Shown piece by piece: positions 45,805 through 63,934 of a stretch of 64,000 nucleotides of DNA. The position numbers and the translations under genes were made by a program. The first letter of the stretch is position 1; each line of letters starts with the position of its first letter. Location: the NCBI GenBank assembly GCA_029261355.1, contig JAJDBM010000040.1, forward strand, positions 62,001 through 126,000, in the 5' to 3' direction. The stretch is from Nitrospirales bacterium (lineage in GTDB: Bacteria > Nitrospirota > Nitrospiria > Nitrospirales > UBA8639). The notes under the pieces are model-generated. The model had not been told where the DNA came from. It did not search any database and was given only the letters and a program-made list of their open reading frames with translations.

Positions 45805-47019
45805 ATGAAATCTCACGTTCTCATTCACAAAAGAATATCCAGGACCAATGTCTTGACCTGGACAGGATCTCTCTTCTTGCATGGAGTATTAATACTTGCC
45901 TCTCTCTCGTTTCTGACTCCCACACCTGCCAATCAGGCTTCCGAAACGCTCAAATGGAACGTCTCACTTATTCAACCCACACCATCTTCCGTTCCAACCG
46001 AGCACGTGCAAACAGTCACACGTCCATCACCGTCACGCCACACGACTCTTTCACGTCCTCTGCAGCATCGACACGTCGTCGCACACCGTCCCATACAACG
46101 AGAGCAGCCGTCTACCCATAAGACGGCTGCCCGTCCTCAACAAAATCACAAGCCGATCAAGACTCAGCATACACCGAAACGAGCACCCACACCTCCGAAT
46201 TTATTACCAACACAAATGGCACAAGCCCTAACCACTGTGTCGACCAAACTGACGAACAGACAACAGGTCGCCCCAGGGAAAACATCAACGCCATCCAGAT
46301 CACTCCCTCATTTTCAGTCTTCTCCTCAGACTGTTCGAGCGCAGGTACCGCAAAATGTTCGCGCCTCTCAGCATAAAGTAACCACAGTGGCCGTCAAATC
46401 AGCTCAAATGGGACAACCCAAGCAATTCATCAAAATGGCAGAAACATCACGCAAGGCCATCACAACAATGACCTCCACTGTGCAAACTCATAGCAAGCAA
46501 GCACAACCACATCAACAGGCCATCATTCAATCGAGCAACCGGCGACGGATTGCCCCAACAACCCAAGGGATACAACGCCAACTACAACAAACAGTCAGGT
46601 ATACCGGTTCAACCCAACGACACATAACGAAAGAACTACGACATCGCTCACAGACTTCTTCTCGTAAACAAGTGGCTACTAAGCCGAGACAACGGGCGTC
46701 ATCTGACAAAACCGTCACGTCGGATCAACTCTCGGGTGAAGCCCTTGCGTTCCTCAAACTCCTTCGTGAGAAAATTGAAAGACACCGCAAATATCCACGT
46801 GTGGCCAAACGACTAGGGTATCAAGGAACCACGACTGTCTCATTTGCTATATCGCATCAAGGAACTTTGACGGTATTACAAGTAGCTGATCCGTCAGGGC
46901 ATTCCATGTTAGACGAAGCGGCTTTAACAGCCGTTCAGCGCATCATGCCCTTAAAACCACCGGCAATGATCGGAGGCACACTCATAGAAATTCCAGTGGC
47001 ATTCGAATTGACACGGTAA
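45805..47019 (+). CDS. tonB: TonB-like energy transducer
   Basis: A 404-residue protein that links the inner-membrane proton motive force to outer-membrane receptors. One N-terminal anchor (VLTWTGSLFLHGVLILASLSF) with the HG-x-x-L-type start. A very long Pro/Gln/Thr/Arg-rich periplasmic spacer (about 50-300) differs from the usual Pro-Lys repeats. C-terminal domain about 320-404: HRKYPRVAKRLGYQGTTTVSF and ADPSGHSMLDEAALTAVQRI, the TonB_C fold. Followed by an unknown periplasmic protein, ExbB and ExbD. Probable Fur control from the upstream palindrome. Confidence 0.9.
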   Translation: MKSHVLIHKRISRTNVLTWTGSLFLHGVLILASLSFLTPTPANQASETLKWNVSLIQPTPSSVPTEHVQTVTRPSPSRHTTLSRPLQHRHVVAHRPIQREQPSTHKTAARPQQNHKPIKTQHTPKRAPTPPNLLPTQMAQALTTVSTKLTNRQQVAPGKTSTPSRSLPHFQSSPQTVRAQVPQNVRASQHKVTTVAVKSAQMGQPKQFIKMAETSRKAITTMTSTVQTHSKQAQPHQQAIIQSSNRRRIAPTTQGIQRQLQQTVRYTGSTQRHITKELRHRSQTSSRKQVATKPRQRASSDKTVTSDQLSGEALAFLKLLREKIERHRKYPRVAKRLGYQGTTTVSFAISHQGTLTVLQVADPSGHSMLDEAALTAVQRIMPLKPPAMIGGTLIEIPVAFELTR

Positions 47020-47189
47020 AATCAAGACAGATTCACTCATCCGTCAGGAGTAGTTAAAATCTTCAGCGACAGGGCTGTGAGTCAAACGGAAACAACAATC
47101 ACCAAGTGAACAAAAGGTTGAGAACAGGTTGACTCGTACATCTCAGTTTGAAATTTACCCATTTTTTATTTTTCTGAAAGGACATCATC

Positions 47190-47657
47190 ATGATTACGCG
47201 AATGATTCTCATTGCATTACTCGTCGGATGGTCTGGAGTTCACACAACGATGGCGGCTGACACAACATTTACAGCCAAAACTACGGATGCAGATGGCGTG
47301 GAGATGACACTGGAAAACGCCCGGCTTTACTGGGAAGACCAAATCAATGAGACCACGTTTGTTCCGCATGAAATCACCTATGTCCCCGTCAAACGAGGAG
47401 CCGCTACGCTGAACGTTCAGTTTGCCAATATCAAACACATCCACATTAAACCCGATCATCCCAATAAAGGAAAAGCTGCATTAAATATTGCATTACAAAA
47501 CGGGAAAAACGGAGAATTTCCATTAGCTCAAGAAGTCAGTCTCGTAGGTAACTCTGATTTTGGGGAAATCAAAGTCCCGGTTCAAGATCTTCGAAAAATT
47601 GTCCTTATGGCCGATGACAAACAGTCGAATATTCAAGCTCAATCAAAAACTCCATAG
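47190..47657 (+). CDS. Periplasmic protein of unknown function in the ton operon
   Basis: A 155-residue exported protein; signal ends TTMAADTT. Two beta-rich parts: ARLYWEDQINETTFVPHEI and QFANIKHIHIKPDHP, then EIKVPVQDLRKIVLMADD. No family recognised. Placed between tonB and exbB (37 bp before exbB), suggesting a role with TonB function. Confidence 0.75.
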   Translation: MITRMILIALLVGWSGVHTTMAADTTFTAKTTDADGVEMTLENARLYWEDQINETTFVPHEITYVPVKRGAATLNVQFANIKHIHIKPDHPNKGKAALNIALQNGKNGEFPLAQEVSLVGNSDFGEIKVPVQDLRKIVLMADDKQSNIQAQSKTP

Positions 47658-47693
47658 CATGTCTCTCACCAAGAGAAAAAAGGAATACGAACG

Positions 47694-48119
47694 ATGAATT
47701 CACTGCACGCCGTCGTCGATTACGGCATAATCGGTCTTTTGCTTGTCTTAAGCATCTGGGCCATGGCTGTCGCAACTGAGCGATGGATATTCTATCGACG
47801 TCTCAACGTGTCACAATTTCCCGACCGACACCGTTTTGAAATTTCATTAACGAAACGTTTAGTCGTCATTGGAACAGTTGCCGCCAATGCTCCCTACATT
47901 GGCCTACTCGGAACAGTCTTGGGCATTATGATGACATTCCAAAGTATGGGAGATGCGACGACTATTTCGGTCAGCACGATTATGGTTGGATTAAGCTTAG
48001 CATTGAAAGCCACGGCTGTCGGCCTGATCGTGGCCATTCCCTGTGTCGTCATGAACAATGCGTTACGCCGCCGCGTGACAGAACTACTCACCGAACATCA
48101 GGTCGCCCATGGATCATGA
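47694..48119 (+). CDS. exbB: ExbB-like proton channel (MotA/TolQ/ExbB family), short form
   Basis: A 141-residue inner-membrane protein, well short of classical ExbB (about 240). Three helices: IIGLLLVLSIWAMAVATERW, then APYIGLLGTVLGIMMTFQSM and STIMVGLSLALKATAVGLIV, the last two with the family's conserved Gly/Thr pattern. Short ExbB forms are known in the TonB-ExbBD2-type systems. AAGGA precedes the ATG. Overlaps exbD by 11 bp, so the two are translationally coupled. Confidence 0.92.
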   Translation: MNSLHAVVDYGIIGLLLVLSIWAMAVATERWIFYRRLNVSQFPDRHRFEISLTKRLVVIGTVAANAPYIGLLGTVLGIMMTFQSMGDATTISVSTIMVGLSLALKATAVGLIVAIPCVVMNNALRRRVTELLTEHQVAHGS

Positions 48120-48483
48120 ACTGAATCAAATCAATGTTATTCCGCTGGTGGACGTCATGCTCGTCTTACTCGTCATCGTGCTCACCACAGCAACCTTTAT
48201 CACAACTGGGCATATTCCAGTCGACCTGGCCAAAGCGTCAGAATCCACAGCACAACCAGATGATCCAATTCGCATAACCTTGACCGCGAAGGGAGCGCTG
48301 TTCCTCAACGACGAAGAAATTTCTCGAGATAACCTCATCGGCCATTTACAAGAATTCCCTAAAAAAACGCTAGTGGTCGTGAGAGCAGACAGGGTCATTA
48401 AACTTGAACAATTTGTTGATGTTGTCGACGAAGTGAAAGGAGAAGGGTTTCAGCAGGTGAGCTTGGCAGTTGAACGCAAGTAA
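48109..48483 (+). CDS. exbD: ExbD-like biopolymer transport protein
   Basis: A 124-residue protein with one N-terminal helix, INVIPLVDVMLVLLVIVLTT, which includes the conserved proton-carrying Asp in PLVDVMLVLL. Periplasmic domain ends VVDEVKGEGFQQVSLAVE. Overlaps the end of exbB. Completes a TonB-X-ExbB-ExbD gene set. Confidence 0.93.
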   Translation: MDHELNQINVIPLVDVMLVLLVIVLTTATFITTGHIPVDLAKASESTAQPDDPIRITLTAKGALFLNDEEISRDNLIGHLQEFPKKTLVVVRADRVIKLEQFVDVVDEVKGEGFQQVSLAVERK

Positions 48484-54496: not shown

Positions 54497-54721
54497 GCAA
54501 TAGATGAGACACGTGTCAATACGAGCCGCATAGTCTGAGGCCATTTCAAAAAAAATCTCCAAGCTAGGGTTAAGAAAATTTTATATTCTTGACATCTTTA
54601 CTGAGGTCCATTCGTCACTCAAACTTACTACTCTCAGAGGTGGGCCCGAAAAACTTGACACCCGCTTCAGTGGATAAGTAGACCTGTTTTAATCATCCGC
54701 ACGTTATTGACAGGAGCTTAC

Positions 54722-55027
54722 ATGAGTCGACGAATCCGACGGCACCACAACCCCGTGTTCAAGGCAAAGGTAGCGGTGGCGGCCCTGAAAGGCGATTGCA
54801 CCACGGCTGAGTTAGCGAAGAAATTTGACGTCCACCCCAACCAGATTGCTCAATGGAAAACCCAGCTACTGGAACAGGCCCCCGCCGCCTTCGATGAGAA
54901 GTGGCGTGAGGCGGCCCCGGCCGTTGATGTCAAAACCCTGCATGCCAAGATTGGGCAACTGACGCTGGAGAATGATTTTTTAGAAGGCGCGCTCGGCAAA
55001 GCCGGACGGCTGAGCGCAAAACCATGA
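54722..55027 (+). CDS. IS3-family transposase OrfA
   Basis: A 101-residue DNA-binding subunit. ATG at 54722 follows CAGGAG; a longer frame from 54707 lacks a ribosome site. HTH about residues 18-45 (FKAKVAVAALKGDCTTAELA, then KFDVHPNQIAQWK), then a leucine-rich coiled coil (LHAKIGQLTLENDFLEGAL). Its last codons overlap OrfB by 4 bp (ATGA), so OrfB may be made by reinitiation or by frameshifting. Confidence 0.93.
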   Translation: MSRRIRRHHNPVFKAKVAVAALKGDCTTAELAKKFDVHPNQIAQWKTQLLEQAPAAFDEKWREAAPAVDVKTLHAKIGQLTLENDFLEGALGKAGRLSAKP

Positions 55028-55851
55028 TTGACCGGAGCCATGCCCTCCCCCTCTCGCACCCAGCCAAGATACTTGGGTTGTCTCGAGGCTGCCTCTACTA
55101 TGAACCAACACCAGTCAGTGAGCATGAACTCGGATTGATGCATCGTTTAGATCAACTACATGTGGCTCACCCATTCGCTGGATCACGGATGCTGAGAGAT
55201 CTGCTTCGATTGGAAGGCTTCAACATTGGCCGGAGGCACGTCAGAACCCTGATGAAACGGATGGGCATCGAGGCGCTCTATTGCCAGCCTCGAACAACTC
55301 AGACGCATCGAGGGCACCCGGTGTATCCCTACTTACTTAGGAATCTGGCCATTACGCGCTCCAATCAGGTGTGGGCATCAGACGTTATCTACATCCCAAT
55401 GGCGCATGGATTTGTCTATCTGACCGTGATCCTGGATTGGTATAGTCGCCATGTGCTGGCCTGGCGTGTGTCGGTGACGATGGATGTGGAATTTATCATG
55501 GATGCCTTGGAAGAAGCGCTTGAGACATATGGCTGTCCAGCCATCATGAACACCGATCAAGGCAGTCAATATACCAGTGAGCGATTCCTTCAAGCGCTTC
55601 ACGATCAAGATATTCAAATTAGTATGGACGGCAAAGGTGCGTGGCGGGACAATATTTTTGTCGAACGATTATGGCGATCCGTCAAGTATGAGGATATTTA
55701 CTTGCACGCCTATGAGACCCCGAACGAAGTCAAGCAAGGGCTAAAACGGTATTTTGCATTCTATAATTCCAGGCGCCCACATCAGGCACATGCTGGGCAG
55801 ACGCCCGACACGGCGTATTTCAGCCGGTTGCCAGTAGCTGAGGTCGCATAA
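55024..55851 (+). CDS. IS3-family transposase OrfB (DDE integrase domain)
   Basis: A 275-residue catalytic subunit. N-terminal HTH_21-like part with YPYLLRNLAITRSNQVWASD. DDE residues: D in VWASDVIYIPM, D in AIMNTDQGSQYTS, E in NIFVERLWRSVKYEDIYLH, with the YNSRRPHQAH ending typical of IS3. All catalytic residues are present, so the element may be active. Confidence 0.95.
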   Translation: MIDRSHALPLSHPAKILGLSRGCLYYEPTPVSEHELGLMHRLDQLHVAHPFAGSRMLRDLLRLEGFNIGRRHVRTLMKRMGIEALYCQPRTTQTHRGHPVYPYLLRNLAITRSNQVWASDVIYIPMAHGFVYLTVILDWYSRHVLAWRVSVTMDVEFIMDALEEALETYGCPAIMNTDQGSQYTSERFLQALHDQDIQISMDGKGAWRDNIFVERLWRSVKYEDIYLHAYETPNEVKQGLKRYFAFYNSRRPHQAHAGQTPDTAYFSRLPVAEVA

Positions 55852-58357: not shown

Positions 58358-58597
58358 TCATCGTGTGCTTGCACTCGAACATTCTTTTCGACGTATTCCT
58401 TCTTTCCATGTTTTCCGCATAAATTCCTGGTTATTCAACATTCTTTTTTCTTGCCACAATTCAGTATTCATATATTGAATTTGAGCACCATTATCAAAAT
58501 ATGTCACAAAACTCTCTTCTGTTAACAAATGACTCAATAACCATTCTCCACTACAGGCCTTCATGGTCTCATTCATTCCTTTCTCATCCATTACCAC
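58358..58597 (-). CDS. Possible small protein divergent from the TonB receptor
   Basis: A 79-residue frame on the minus strand, 20 bp from the receptor start on the opposite strand. Contains WLLSHLLTEESFVTYFDNGAQ and ends KEGIRRKE. Reads like a soluble protein, but start codons have weak ribosome sites and I do not recognise it. A Fur-box-like match lies inside it (58477-58495, minus strand, 13 of 19), which would argue that the region is regulatory instead. Confidence 0.3.
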   Translation of the reverse strand: MVMDEKGMNETMKACSGEWLLSHLLTEESFVTYFDNGAQIQYMNTELWQEKRMLNNQEFMRKTWKEGIRRKECSSASTR

Positions 58598-58616: not shown

Positions 58617-60716
58617 ATGACCCAACGACCTCAACTATTTATATTTGGACTGTTCCTCACTTTGCTATTGAACTCAACATTTGCCCATTCCGCAGATGAA
58701 GATGTCGCCACACAACAAGCGAATCCACAAGCCAAACCAACACTCAAGCTCAAGCAAGTCACGATCAGCGCGACCAAAACCGCACGCGACCCGATCATGA
58801 CACCTGGGGAAGTCAGCATTATCGAACAGGAAACCTTTCAGCAACGACAAGCGCAGAGCTTAGATGATGTTCTGCGGTATCAACCCGGGATCACTTCTGA
58901 AAGCGGACCACGACAGATGGGCGAATCTCCAAATATTCGTGGACTTTCGGGAGCACGAGTCCTCACACTCATTGACGGACAGCGAATGAATTTTCAGTCA
59001 GGTCACAAGGGTCGCACTTTTATTGATGTCGATCTTTTAAAACGAGTAGAAGTCATTCGTGGTCCGGGGTCTGCGCTCTATGGCAGTCAAGCCATTGGTG
59101 GGGTCGTCGCAATGGAAACCAAGGATCCATCTGACTATTTGGGACCAGATGGACAATTTGCTATTTCTCAAAAATTTGGATACCAAAGAAACAGCGATGA
59201 AATCCTTACCAGTACCGCATTAGCTGGCCGTCTGAGTGAACATGTAGAGTTCATGGCCTATGGCCTCCTGCGGGGGGCAGACAACATCCGCATTGGCGAT
59301 GGGTTTGGCGAATTGCCTAATTCTGGACAGGATAACGCAGCTGGTCTTGGAAAAATTGTTTGGAAACCCACGGCCCATGATCAAGCAGAGTTTTCTGTCT
59401 ATGTCACCCGTCAAGCTGCTGGCATTCCGTTTAACTCCAATACGAACCCCACTAATACCGCCAGCATTTCCGATCGAAAAAACCGTCAATTTAACTATCG
59501 ACTTGGCTATACCCACAACAATCCTGATAACCCATATATCAATTTGAATGGCTTTGTGTATCACAATACACTCGACGTGACTGAGCGGCAGTTATCCAAT
59601 GGCACCCGAGATGATATTAATTTTGATACCACCGGATTCGATCTTCGGAATTCCATGAATCTTGGCAACCCAGAGTTCCATCACCATAACATCACCGTAG
59701 GAACAGAATTTTACACAAACAATCAAGAGAGCACTGGAAATCGCGCAACCGGAGCACGTCTATTTTTCCCAGAAGCCAATTCCTATGTCTATGGACTGTA
59801 CATTCAAGATGAAATCACGCTGTTCAATGATCGTGCTGTGCTAATACCAGGGCTACGATGGGACCATTGGGAGAATAAAGCCAAGGGGCAATCCAAGAAA
59901 ACCGCAGATCGGGTCAATCCAAAAATTGGAGGAGTCGTCAAAGCCACCGACTTCTTGTTTTTGACCGCCAACTATGCTCATGGCTTTCGACAACCAGGCT
60001 TTGACGATCTGTTTGTATCTGGCACTCATTTTCCAGGATCGGTCTTTCTTCCCAACCCAAATCTGAAACCAGAGAAAAGTCGCAATATCGATGCCGGTCT
60101 TCGCATTGTACTTCCTCGAGTATTCTCTGAGAATGATCAACTGATTTGGAAAGGCGCATATTTCAGAAACAAGGTACGCGATTTCATCGATCAAGATGTG
60201 AACTTCAATTTCGGGACCTTCCAGCTTGAATTCATGCCCGTCAATGTTACTAAGGCCTTACTGCAAGGGTTTGAAAGTGAACTCGCATGGTTACCCACTG
60301 ACAATATTACCGTCCGCGCGAACTTTACCTATACGCGTGGGACTGACCAAACAACCAATGAACCCCTGACGACAATACCTGCCATCCGTGGGTTACTTGG
60401 CATGGATTACTACCACGTTCCCTGGGGGCTCACCATAGGAGGTCGCACTCAGATTACTGGTGATCAAAAACGAGCGCCTGATGGAACGGCAAAGACAGGA
60501 GGCTATGCCCTCTTTGATATTTATCTAGCCATGCAACCCCCGCAATCATTTTTTGACCAACTTGGAACACCATGGCTTCATGGCTTGCGCGTGAATGCCG
60601 GTATTGACAATCTCACAGATCTCAAATATCGACGTCATTTATCGAACCTACCCGAGGCTGGCATTAATCCCAAAGTCTCAGTAGCCTATACCTTTGTCCT
60701 TCCGTCGTCTCCGTGA
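58617..60716 (+). CDS. TonB-dependent receptor, hemoglobin/transferrin/lactoferrin family
   Basis: A 699-residue outer-membrane receptor. TAGGAG 7 bp before the ATG; signal ends AHSADED. TonB-box region LKLKQVTISATKTARDP at about residues 41-57. Plug domain VLRYQPGITSES, NIRGLSGARVLTLIDGQRMN, RVEVIRGPGSALYGSQAIGG matches hemoglobin/heme receptors, including GGVVAMETKDPSDYL. Barrel ends at SVAYTFVLPSSP. Expected to import heme or a related iron ligand using TonB-ExbBD. Its stop codon overlaps the next gene. Confidence 0.9.
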   Translation: MTQRPQLFIFGLFLTLLLNSTFAHSADEDVATQQANPQAKPTLKLKQVTISATKTARDPIMTPGEVSIIEQETFQQRQAQSLDDVLRYQPGITSESGPRQMGESPNIRGLSGARVLTLIDGQRMNFQSGHKGRTFIDVDLLKRVEVIRGPGSALYGSQAIGGVVAMETKDPSDYLGPDGQFAISQKFGYQRNSDEILTSTALAGRLSEHVEFMAYGLLRGADNIRIGDGFGELPNSGQDNAAGLGKIVWKPTAHDQAEFSVYVTRQAAGIPFNSNTNPTNTASISDRKNRQFNYRLGYTHNNPDNPYINLNGFVYHNTLDVTERQLSNGTRDDINFDTTGFDLRNSMNLGNPEFHHHNITVGTEFYTNNQESTGNRATGARLFFPEANSYVYGLYIQDEITLFNDRAVLIPGLRWDHWENKAKGQSKKTADRVNPKIGGVVKATDFLFLTANYAHGFRQPGFDDLFVSGTHFPGSVFLPNPNLKPEKSRNIDAGLRIVLPRVFSENDQLIWKGAYFRNKVRDFIDQDVNFNFGTFQLEFMPVNVTKALLQGFESELAWLPTDNITVRANFTYTRGTDQTTNEPLTTIPAIRGLLGMDYYHVPWGLTIGGRTQITGDQKRAPDGTAKTGGYALFDIYLAMQPPQSFFDQLGTPWLHGLRVNAGIDNLTDLKYRRHLSNLPEAGINPKVSVAYTFVLPSSP

Positions 60717-63700
60717 ATACCATCTCAATGGTACAAGCCAACGTGATCGATTCAGCCCGAACTCGAGGCCAGCCGATGCTGGCCTCGTCGCCTCCCCCTG
60801 CCTTTCTGTTCTTACTCTTGTACGCCCTGCATTCATTTGTCGGCCTCACCTATGAAGTGGTGTGGATCAAGTATCTCACCAGCACATTAGGCATGACCCT
60901 CCCAGCCTTTGCCATTGTTCTCAGCACATTTATGGCTGGGCTGGGATTAGGCAGCTATATTCTCTCCAGGGTCACCACACACAGGACACCGTTCTACCTC
61001 ACACACATTCAATCATCACTCCTGCTGTTCGCGGTACTCCAAGCTGCGATTGGCATCCTTGGCATGGCCTTTCCCTTCATATTGAACCTTCTGGATTCCC
61101 TCTATGTCGCGATGGCTCCAGAAACAGAAGGGTTCCGCCATCTCCTGATTCGCTGCACCGTGGCGGGTATGATCCTTCTTCCAATCACCTCGCTACTTGG
61201 AACTGGCTTTCCACTCTTAGCTGGACTGTCCACATCATTGAGTACCAAGGACTCCTCACAACGACCCGGCCTAGTATATTACGTCGGGGTCCTCGCCTCG
61301 GCGATCGGCGCACTGGCATCCTTGGCCATGATTCCCGCATGGGGACTACTCTCCACATCGCTCGTGTTAGGCGCGCTCAACCTGGCCATTGCGATGCTCA
61401 CATGGGCAAGTGCCAAAAGATATTCCTGGACTGCCTGTTCATCAACATCGCTCTCATCCAACCTCAAACGGGAAAAAGGACTTTCTCAACTCGGCCCATC
61501 ACATGATTCGGCCGCGCACGATCTCAAACCACTGATCCTTGCCATTGGCGCATTAGTCGGATTCTTCATTTTGGGACTGGAAATTGTCGGAGCCCAATAT
61601 ATCTGGCTCGTGATCAATGCCACCGCCTACTCAGAAGGCCTGTTGTTTGCAGCAATTCTGTTAGCCATGGCAATGGGATCTGCATTATATCTTGTGGCTC
61701 GTTCGTATTGTTCCCCTTCAACCTTAATCATCGTTGGATTCTTGACTGCCGCCTGTGCCCAAATCGCATTAATTCCGTTTGCCGAGAGTATCGCCTCAGT
61801 GTTTGATCTTTTTCTTCACCAGTCCGGTTGGGTACAGGATTGGATAGGAACCTCGTCTCTTCGTTTTTTCATCGCCAGCGGAGCCCTCACATTCAGCGTA
61901 CTCGGGCTACCGGCCCTGGGATATGGCCTCGTGTTTTGCAGCCTCTGTGAACTCGCCACCAACACCATCCCTCACTCACTACGGGCTGAACTTTCTGTGA
62001 ACAATCCGATAATACATACTCGAGTATCGCCTCTCGCTCAATTGTATGCCTGGCACAATTGGGGTTCTGTAGCTGGAGTCCTTTTGACCTCGTTTGTCCT
62101 GATTCCATGGCTCGGACTCACAATTAGCCTGACCATCTTGTCGGTCTGTGGCCTTGTGCTCATTTGGATCGTGTTGGCATTTACGCCACTGCTGTCTGCA
62201 ACTCGCGGACAAGCTTACAAACATACTTCTAAGTTTCAAACCCAGCTCATTCCTATAAGTGTCATTCTTCTCGGTCTCACTCTTTGGATTGGAGTCAATG
62301 GGGACCTGACATTTCAAACACATGCCTCCGGTGAGTCTCACGATGTGATCTACCAGCGAGAAGATGCCTCAGGTGTGGTTGAAGTGTTTGCTGATCGCCA
62401 AACTGGGGAACGCACCCTCTTCACCAGTCGACTTCGGCAAGAAGGTGGAAGTCGTCAAGAAGATATTCGTGTCCAACGGCTACAAGGTTATCTACCAATA
62501 CTGTTACATCCTAACCCGAAACGAACATTAGTTGTGGGCTTGGGAACAGGAATCGCTGCAGGATCCTATCTAAGAAAGGAAGTCGAAGAGGTCACGATTG
62601 TCGAAATTTCAGAAGGGATCATTGAAGCGGCGGAATTGTTCGAACAAGAAAGTGGTGAAATTCTTTCACATCCCAAAACACGTATCGTGAAACAAGACGG
62701 TCGAAATTTTATGAAACTGTCCCGCCATCACTATGACCTCATCATCCAAGAACTCTTTTTTCCATACCAAAGTGGTGTCGGAAGTCTCTATACCGTCGAG
62801 CATTATCAGCGAATCCGTAACCGTCTGGCTCCCGGTGGTATGGTCGGACAATGGATCACAATCAATCAACTAGGCCTTAATGATCTGCGCATGCTTGTCC
62901 ACACCTTTCACACGATATTTCCTCATACGTCTCTCTGGCTTCATGGAGGCTACTTGCTGATTCTTGGGGGGCTCGAACCGCTTTCCATCGACTACCCAAC
63001 ATATACTCGACGATTTTATGAGGACGATCACTTAGGAGGCCTCTCAAAATTAGGAACAGACCCCTATGACATGCTGGGTGGTTTTGTGACCCAGGGAGCA
63101 CCTCTGCAGGACTGGGCGTCTGGAGTCTCACTCAATACTGATGACAATCGTCGCATTGAGTACTCAGCACCGCTTTCATTCGCCAAGCTAAATACGACAA
63201 CTCTGGCAGCCGAAACTCTAGAGTCGTTTCAATCCATCCTCCTCCCACTGACTGATGTCGTTCAGATGCAAAAATCATCACCAGAACTTGATGAGAGTAA
63301 ACTGACGCACATATCCAAAGCGTTTTCTCTGCTTCTTCATGGCATTGTCGCTCGGACACGAGAACAGCATGAACAGGCTGAATCGCTGTATGTTCAGGCA
63401 TGGCAGCATAATCCCAACAACTATCAGATCAAAGCCTACCTTGAACCTCTCTGGGCGTCCCGCGGTCGTGCATTACTCTTGAAAGGTGAGCAGGAAGAGG
63501 CAAGTCGGTGGCTGCGCAAAGCCTCCGACGTGAACAAGGCCAATGCCAATGTCCTCTTCGATCTGGGATTACTCGCTTCACAAGAAGGGAATGATCGCGA
63601 AGCTATCACGCACTACACAACAATCCTTGAGGAATTCCCTCGTTGGCCGCAACGATTAACACTCATGTTTAATCTAGGATTGAGCCATTATAGAATGGAA

Positions 63701-63934
63701 GATTTTTCACGAGCCGCTCAATTATTTCAAAAAGTGATTCGTTCAGAACCATCCTCGGTGAACGCTCACTTCAACTTGGCAAATAGTCTTGCGCAAACTG
63801 AGCAATACGAACAAGCGGCCATTCATTATCGGACTGTTCTACGATTGGCCCCTAGTCATCAACAGGCCCAAGAGAATTATCTTGAAATCATTGAGTGGAT
63901 CACAACGCAAGAGTCCGATGCACCTCCACTGTAG
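60713..63934 (+). CDS. Membrane-spermidine synthase-TPR fusion protein
   Basis: A 1073-residue protein starting at GTG 60713, overlapping the receptor's TGA by 4 bp; an ATG at 60728 is an alternative. About 12 membrane helices (about residues 25-540, beginning YALHSFVGLTYEVVWIKYL) precede a spermidine synthase-like domain at about 545-800 with TLVVGLGTGIAAGSYL and EEVTIVEISEGIIEAAELFE, GRNFMKLSRHHYDLIIQELF, then TPR repeats from about 860 (VLFDLGLLASQEGNDREAIT, VNAHFNLANSLAQTEQYEQA). Similar fusions exist; the enzymatic product is unknown, and the SpeE-type catalytic Asp after GRNF-like motif reads IIQELFF, so activity as spermidine synthase is doubtful. Cotranscribed with the receptor. Confidence 0.85.
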   Translation: MNTISMVQANVIDSARTRGQPMLASSPPPAFLFLLLYALHSFVGLTYEVVWIKYLTSTLGMTLPAFAIVLSTFMAGLGLGSYILSRVTTHRTPFYLTHIQSSLLLFAVLQAAIGILGMAFPFILNLLDSLYVAMAPETEGFRHLLIRCTVAGMILLPITSLLGTGFPLLAGLSTSLSTKDSSQRPGLVYYVGVLASAIGALASLAMIPAWGLLSTSLVLGALNLAIAMLTWASAKRYSWTACSSTSLSSNLKREKGLSQLGPSHDSAAHDLKPLILAIGALVGFFILGLEIVGAQYIWLVINATAYSEGLLFAAILLAMAMGSALYLVARSYCSPSTLIIVGFLTAACAQIALIPFAESIASVFDLFLHQSGWVQDWIGTSSLRFFIASGALTFSVLGLPALGYGLVFCSLCELATNTIPHSLRAELSVNNPIIHTRVSPLAQLYAWHNWGSVAGVLLTSFVLIPWLGLTISLTILSVCGLVLIWIVLAFTPLLSATRGQAYKHTSKFQTQLIPISVILLGLTLWIGVNGDLTFQTHASGESHDVIYQREDASGVVEVFADRQTGERTLFTSRLRQEGGSRQEDIRVQRLQGYLPILLHPNPKRTLVVGLGTGIAAGSYLRKEVEEVTIVEISEGIIEAAELFEQESGEILSHPKTRIVKQDGRNFMKLSRHHYDLIIQELFFPYQSGVGSLYTVEHYQRIRNRLAPGGMVGQWITINQLGLNDLRMLVHTFHTIFPHTSLWLHGGYLLILGGLEPLSIDYPTYTRRFYEDDHLGGLSKLGTDPYDMLGGFVTQGAPLQDWASGVSLNTDDNRRIEYSAPLSFAKLNTTTLAAETLESFQSILLPLTDVVQMQKSSPELDESKLTHISKAFSLLLHGIVARTREQHEQAESLYVQAWQHNPNNYQIKAYLEPLWASRGRALLLKGEQEEASRWLRKASDVNKANANVLFDLGLLASQEGNDREAITHYTTILEEFPRWPQRLTLMFNLGLSHYRMEDFSRAAQLFQKVIRSEPSSVNAHFNLANSLAQTEQYEQAAIHYRTVLRLAPSHQQAQENYLEIIEWITTQESDAPPL

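Follow-up and report, generated by a model that had tools for sequence, protein, structure and literature searches.

A heme receptor-linked MFS/spermidine synthase-like/TPR fusion in Nitrospirales as a candidate inner-membrane component of heme-iron uptake

The receptor and fusion genes

The window, by which we mean the whole 64,000-nucleotide stretch of Nitrospirales DNA analyzed here, carries two neighboring genes on its + strand close to its end. The first (58617..60716) encodes a TonB-dependent heme/hemoglobin receptor, which matches TIGR01785 at 451.5 bits against a curated cutoff of 316.85, in agreement with the identity given in the preliminary description of this DNA. The receptor orthologs from the window's own genome (G000) and from four others (G417, G019, G025, and G027) all contain the segment FRQP...H...NP(N/D)L, which we take to be a heme-receptor motif. 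The second gene (60713..63934, + strand) encodes a protein of 1073 amino acids when read from its GTG start. It was described as a fusion of membrane, SpeE-like, and TPR regions, and this is borne out: the reading frame is real, and matches Spermine_synth (PF01564) at 49.3 bits (cutoff 22.9), MFS_SpdSyn (NF037959, fused MFS/spermidine synthase) at 55 bits (curated cutoff 40), and TPR families.

The two reading frames have the four bases GTGA in common, and the genes had therefore been described as translationally coupled. The stop-start overlap is present in the window but is not conserved: the gap is 5 nt in G417, 149 nt in G025, 246 nt in G027, and 1045 nt in G019, where it holds a repetitive ORF of 131 amino acids. 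A GC-rich hairpin (60764..60787, + strand) has a counterpart after the receptor stop codon in each of the other four genomes, and across the five genomes only 0 or 1 of 200 shuffled sequences folds as well. A terminator scan counted the G027 hairpin, which has a T tail, as terminator-like; the hairpin of the window was absent from the scan result. Because the overlap occurs only in G000, and a hairpin lies at the junction in all five genomes, translational coupling was not kept. Given the range of gaps and the terminator-like hairpin in G027, a transcript shared by receptor and fusion is putative only.

The start codon of the fusion is uncertain, and may be the GTG at 60713 or an ATG at 60728 or 60776, for three reasons: neither the window nor G417 has a visible Shine–Dalgarno sequence ahead of the GTG; the mismatches between these two genomes show no codon-position bias in the 31-codon leader (15/11/16 at positions 1/2/3, compared with 40/19/64 in the following 129 codons); and in both genomes the hairpin lies inside the putative leader. 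A possible Shine–Dalgarno sequence for the ATG at 60776 was rejected, as the GAGG in question belongs to an arm of the hairpin.

Upstream of the receptor is a putative Fur-like site (58477..58495, + strand), scored against a 19-nt Fur consensus. A block corresponding to it aligns upstream of all five receptors, with 14 of 19 matches in G417, G019, G025, and G027, a score reached by 0–3 of 200 mononucleotide shuffles. The site in the window itself is weak, with 13/19 matches, equaled by 28 of 200 shuffles; as background, 5 of 213 pieces of the window have at least 14 matches. Further upstream (45805..48483, + strand) are genes for TonB, a 155-residue protein, ExbB, and ExbD, assigned using Pfam (for TonB, ExbB, and ExbD) and gene order, which lie in an island with Fur and an ABC transporter read as iron-type. 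The three g4 genomes have a block upstream of the receptor that resembles this one by eye.

Conservation of the receptor–fusion pair

A close full-length ortholog of the fusion was found in five of the 48 family genomes searched, with identities to the window's protein of 62% in G417, 48% in G019 and G025, and 51 and 45% for the two pieces into which a frame split divides the G027 protein. Strong receptor matches occur in the same five genomes; a sixth, in G378, is weak and partial (30%) and comes without a fusion. In all five genomes the receptor lies upstream of the fusion, as its neighbor and on the same strand, and the proposed link to a heme-type receptor is thus conserved in every close ortholog found.

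The close form of the fusion is confined to these five among the 269 genomes of the class. At the level of the phylum, homologs at E 1e-30 were found in 35 of 395 sampled genomes, a sample that did not include G417; four of these are among the five close orthologs, and the others have 26–33% identity. A scan of the genome collection beyond the phylum gave one locus, L044, which has the gene order of G417 and was counted once, as G417. A plasmid search returned 19 records with partial matches, none of which covers 80% of the query. A 20-member tree places the five orthologs in one clade on a long branch, with 100/100 support. They therefore represent one conserved association, perhaps of single origin, rather than five independent ones.

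The wider family behaves differently. A receptor HMM built from 11 receptors was run on 58 loci, comprising the five orthologous loci and 53 others, the latter being places matched at E 1e-34 or better. Its hits were the receptors of the five orthologous loci and, in L044, one additional receptor; no receptor was found in the stretches around the 53 distant loci, nine of which are contigs shorter than 7.2 kb (L008, L087, L088, L092, L112, L115, L162, L163, and L168). ORFs were picked by keeping the longer of overlapping frames, and in L100 the fusion itself was not returned. Leave-one-out HMMs recovered six out of six left-out Pfam-confirmed receptors, including L149:9508-11619, which the control for an earlier and less sensitive phmmer test on 48 loci had missed. 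Scatter of the fusion away from receptors, which had been named as the outcome that would speak against the link, is thus true of the wide family but not of the orthologous clade, where the genes are paired in 5/5.

Domain structure of the fusion

The AlphaFold model of the fusion has a mean pLDDT of 82.9 and a pTM of 0.79. Residues from about 29 to 500 (60797..62212, + strand) are predicted to have the 12-helix MFS fold, with residues 25–491 matching SLC37A4 at Z 29.2 (376 residues, rmsd 3.6). This part is kept throughout the aligned orthologs, and its structural matches are general transporters, none specific to heme. An extra predicted helix (residues 502–529) leads into the spermidine synthase-like domain at residues 533–823 (62309..63181, + strand), which matches 2b2c, 1uir, and 1inl in phmmer and whose predicted fold is that of spermidine synthase, with Z 28.0 to 1uir over 278 residues (rmsd 3.4). 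The C-terminal TPR helices, at residues from about 857 to 1066 (63281..63910, + strand), are indicated both by the family matches and by the model.

The distribution of Lys and Arg in the loops of 20 family members (summed means of 14.75 for even-numbered loops and 2.9 for odd) suggests that the synthase-like domain is in the periplasm. The charge bias of an intact SpeE from G000, described below, reads the same way (7 vs. 2), which makes this placement doubtful, and the charge bias was not relied on.

Residues of the synthase-like domain

Residue roles were taken from PMC6514230, whose available text describes the Glu and Asp that bind the ribose and adenine in spermidine synthase, together with the roles of the aspartates, and were transferred by alignment to solved synthases and 20 family members. 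Both of the motifs noted in the preliminary description are present, namely the glycine motif, VVGLGTG, and IIQELFF (62741..62761, + strand). All 20 aligned family members keep the residues expected to bind the adenosyl group, Glu631 (ribose) and Asp662 (adenine); Gln588 is kept in 15 of the 20 and in 5/5 orthologs, and Val587 occupies the position of Tyr106.

The three aspartates expected of a spermidine synthase are all replaced. Thr612 is found in place of Asp131 of AtSPDS1, which binds the amine of decarboxylated SAM; Glu680 replaces the catalytic Asp201, a conservative change; and Phe683 replaces the substrate Asp204. All three are identical in the five orthologs. IIQELFF had been singled out as unusual for a site where a catalytic Asp is expected. 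The replacement by Glu stands, but the motif is not isolated: I(I/V)QELFF occurs in 5/5 orthologs, and among the 20 aligned family members 18 have D or E at the catalytic position, with a single G and a single Q in the other two. The first aspartate is missing in 20/20 of these members and the last in 19/20; this loss is close to family-wide and, taken alone, gives no indication of heme. QELFF, unlike the aspartate loss, is special to the five-genome clade.

The available part of PMC3725402 reports that exchange of the first aspartate (the Thr612 position) for Ile in a Datura enzyme left no measurable spermidine synthase activity and a low SAM-dependent methyl transfer, while the Arabidopsis enzyme with the same aspartate exchanged kept some synthase activity. 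A profile search of the five genomes found the SpeD family PF02675 in G000 and G417 and gave no match in G019, G025, and G027. In addition, G000 has a separate membrane-anchored SpeE (L152:8602-10143) with SpeD adjoining and with its GGGDG and DLPDP motifs intact. The altered aspartates, the lack of a SpeD match in three of the five genomes, and the intact SpeE with SpeD in G000 together make the fusion an unlikely producer of spermidine, as the preliminary description had supposed.

Neighboring genes

In G000, beyond the end of the window, and in G417, the receptor and fusion are followed on the same strand by a small gene, PepSY, two small genes, an ExbB-like gene (PF01618), DUF2149 (PF09919), a CobN-like gene (PF02514, 1068 and 1062 bits, respectively), and a gene for a protein of 530/531 amino acids. 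The small genes after the fusion encode 137 residues in G000 and 132 in G417, and are not evidently alike. Four small genes thus lie between the fusion and the group of ExbB-like, DUF2149, and CobN-like genes; strong DUF2149 matches occur only in G000 and G417 of the 48 genomes, with weak ones in G003 and G004. A second CobN-like cluster, with two further receptors, lies on contig 36 of G000.

The best solved match of the CobN-like protein is the heme de-chelatase HmuS (9d26, 448 bits), with CobN second (378 bits), and it also exceeds the NCBIfam cutoff for CobN, under which it is named CobN. HmuS is told apart by a methionine-rich insertion, as defined in the available text of PMC12583661, and on reading the sequence this insertion is absent from the CobN-like protein, which has Asp at the position of His-1209 of HmuS. 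Of the HmuS heme ligands, His-254 aligns with a His and Met-79 falls outside the alignment.

The next larger gene that follows the fusion on its strand in G019, G025, and G027 codes for a CbiX/CbiK-like protein of about 560 residues, with a signal-like start (by eye) and two invariant His-Gly motifs. Its similarity to CbiX is just above the cutoff of 22 (24.5 bits in G019 and 25.1 in G025), and its model is modest (pLDDT 70, pTM 0.55). Compared with the PDB, the model is closest to periplasmic CbiK (E 4e-4), then SirB, with FetB of Porphyromonas at rank 7; no more than two PDB matches attain E 0.001, with sugar-binding proteins close behind. Full-length versions are found in these three genomes and in G008, which is without the fusion, and fragments remain in G007, G033, and G378.

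Proposed function

The locus looks like a heme-iron acquisition module, and its organization suggests that the receptor-linked fusion does not make spermidine but is a so far unrecognized component of heme-iron uptake. Our best guess, judging from sequence and predicted structure, is that the fusion is an inner-membrane heme/porphyrin permease-scaffold; we put the probability that it serves such a module, as permease and docking scaffold, at about one half. Heme would enter through the TonB receptor, and a chelatase-like partner would strip iron from it on the periplasmic side. The MFS part would carry heme, porphyrin, or a product through the inner membrane, and the TPRs would hold partners. 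The synthase-like domain may bind an adenosyl ligand, more probably SAM or SAH than decarboxylated SAM, at what would be a regulatory or altered transfer site that makes no spermidine.

Several observations argue for this reading. The pair occurs in the same five of 48 genomes as codirectional neighbors, in a clade that is monophyletic in 100/100 and that differs from the 53 distant loci in having the receptor; chelatase-like neighbors of two different classes accompany it; a Fur-like block precedes the receptors; and the MFS fold is predicted. The adenosyl-binding residues are kept, and the clade has Thr612, Glu680, and Phe683; at the Thr612 position, the change of Asp to Ile in a Datura enzyme abolished measurable synthase activity and gave low methyl transfer, with some synthase activity remaining in Arabidopsis (PMC3725402, available part). 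Against it, the five genomes are a single clade, so that the association may have arisen once; the gap varies up to 1045 nt and in G027 contains the terminator-like hairpin; and the MFS matches do not single out heme. Furthermore, the CobN-like protein lacks the HmuS hallmarks and passes the CobN cutoff, the CbiX-like model is modest and its G008 homolog is full length in the absence of a fusion, and the loss of the first and last aspartates is near family-wide. The charge bias would place the synthase-like domain in the periplasm, a compartment in which one would not expect SAM, although this sidedness is doubtful.

A bolder version, which we offer only tentatively, is that the fusion may represent an undescribed class of proteins that handle heme or porphyrin at the inner membrane. 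Such a protein would be an MFS permease carrying a C-terminal spermidine synthase fold turned adenosyl-ligand sensor or porphyrin-modifying site, and would act behind a heme receptor with de-chelatases of class I or class II, which would be interchangeable.

By analogy with ChlM, which acts beside ChlH, the domain might instead be an active SAM-dependent transferase, of methyl or other groups, with a porphyrin as its substrate, and the MFS part would move the modified pigment. The kept adenosyl-binding residues and the acid retained as Glu680 are consistent with this, as are the CobN/ChlH-superfamily neighbor in two genomes and the loss of an aspartate thought to repel SAM (PMC3725402, available part). 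However, no substrate site was identified in the domain, and the charge bias, itself doubtful, suggests a periplasmic domain without SAM; we consider an active transferase unlikely.

Slightly less plausible is a scaffold or assembly factor, in which the TPRs and a dead synthase domain would assemble or regulate the receptor–TonB–chelatase machinery and the MFS part would be only an anchor. TPRs are common in envelope assembly, and the altered aspartates would suit a dead domain, but all of the aligned orthologs retain the 12-helix MFS part.

The preliminary description had favored metallophore synthesis or export. MFS exporters and SAM-derived metallophores exist, and the iron island includes Fur and TonB components, but the receptor is of the heme type and the classified neighbors are chelatase-like, PepSY, and TonB/ExbB/ExbD proteins; no metallophore synthase was noticed among the neighbor genes read in these loci. 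We found no positive support for metallophore synthesis, and judge a metallophore role improbable. A working spermidine synthase, for which the fold and the PF01564 match would speak, was rejected as very improbable on the three replaced aspartates, the missing SpeD matches, and the intact SpeE and SpeD of G000.

Comparison with known systems

Among the closest known systems is the heme utilization operon hmuYRSTUV of Bacteroidota, with the de-chelatase HmuS (PMC12583661, available part), which likewise has a heme-type TonB receptor, and with which G000 and G417 also share ExbB-like, DUF2149, and CobN/HmuS-like genes. R-, S-, U-, and V-like genes are present in these two genomes; HmuY and HmuT were not recognized in them, so that only part of the six-gene set is found. 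The system described here differs in having the extra MFS–synthase–TPR protein, and a CobN-like protein without the Met-rich insertion. The word spermidine does not occur in the main text of PMC12583661, as available, and no published account of an association between the fusion and a heme receptor is apparent in the open-licence literature. The inner-membrane crossing of heme de-chelation products is not a settled matter in the hmu system, and PMC12583661 calls the function of HmuT unclear; the receptor-linked fusion, with chelatase-like genes of two classes beside it, is a testable candidate for this step.

The protein that follows the fusion in G019, G025, and G027 has as near-top matches the class II chelatase folds of periplasmic CbiK of Desulfovibrio vulgaris, SirB, and FetB of Porphyromonas gingivalis, but is about 560 rather than about 260 residues long, with weak sequence similarity and a modest model. 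The G000 SpeE resembles the fusion in that a spermidine synthase domain comes after its membrane helices; it differs in having seven helices by hydropathy, intact GGGDG and DLPDP motifs, and no TPR match.

The family NF037959 (MFS_SpdSyn) has the same membrane part and spermidine synthase-like domain as the fusion, to which the clade described here adds the upstream heme receptor (5/5), the C-terminal TPRs, and the QELFF acid motif. If the proposed role is correct, it would provide a first function for a branch of this large family, whose members carry only the database label of fused MFS/spermidine synthase.

The receptor-fusion junction and its neighborhood

The stop codon of the TonB-dependent heme receptor is followed by a GC-rich hairpin in all five genomes that carry the receptor and a close ortholog of the MFS/spermidine-synthase-like/TPR fusion (window 60764-60787 and, at related loci, L044:8035-8095, L032:11080-11150, L033:7420-7480 and L031:5676-5776); in two of them it falls within what looks like the fusion's coding leader. 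We note that in G027 (L033:7599-10657) a frameshift, either real or an assembly error, separates the synthase core of the fusion from the remainder. Within the iron island, the stretch separating the heme receptor from the ExbD gene contains an IS3-like transposase pair, identified by eye (window 54707-55851).

The gene for the CbiX-like, secreted-looking protein persists as fragments in G007, G033 and G378, three g4 genomes without the fusion (L149:8304-8880, L150:7363-7836 and L151:8487-8714), a pattern that would fit loss of the module in these three.

Related genes elsewhere in G000

A second CobN-like cluster, on contig 36 of G000 (L153:3835-14742), is probably cobalamin related. It contains two TonB receptors identified by Pfam, and also ExbB-like, DUF2149-like and CobB-like genes, as judged by eye.

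G000 also has an intact membrane SpeE adjoining SpeD (L152:8307-10143). Charge bias predicts its catalytic domain to be outside, as for the fusion, which is puzzling because the enzyme requires cytosolic dcSAM.
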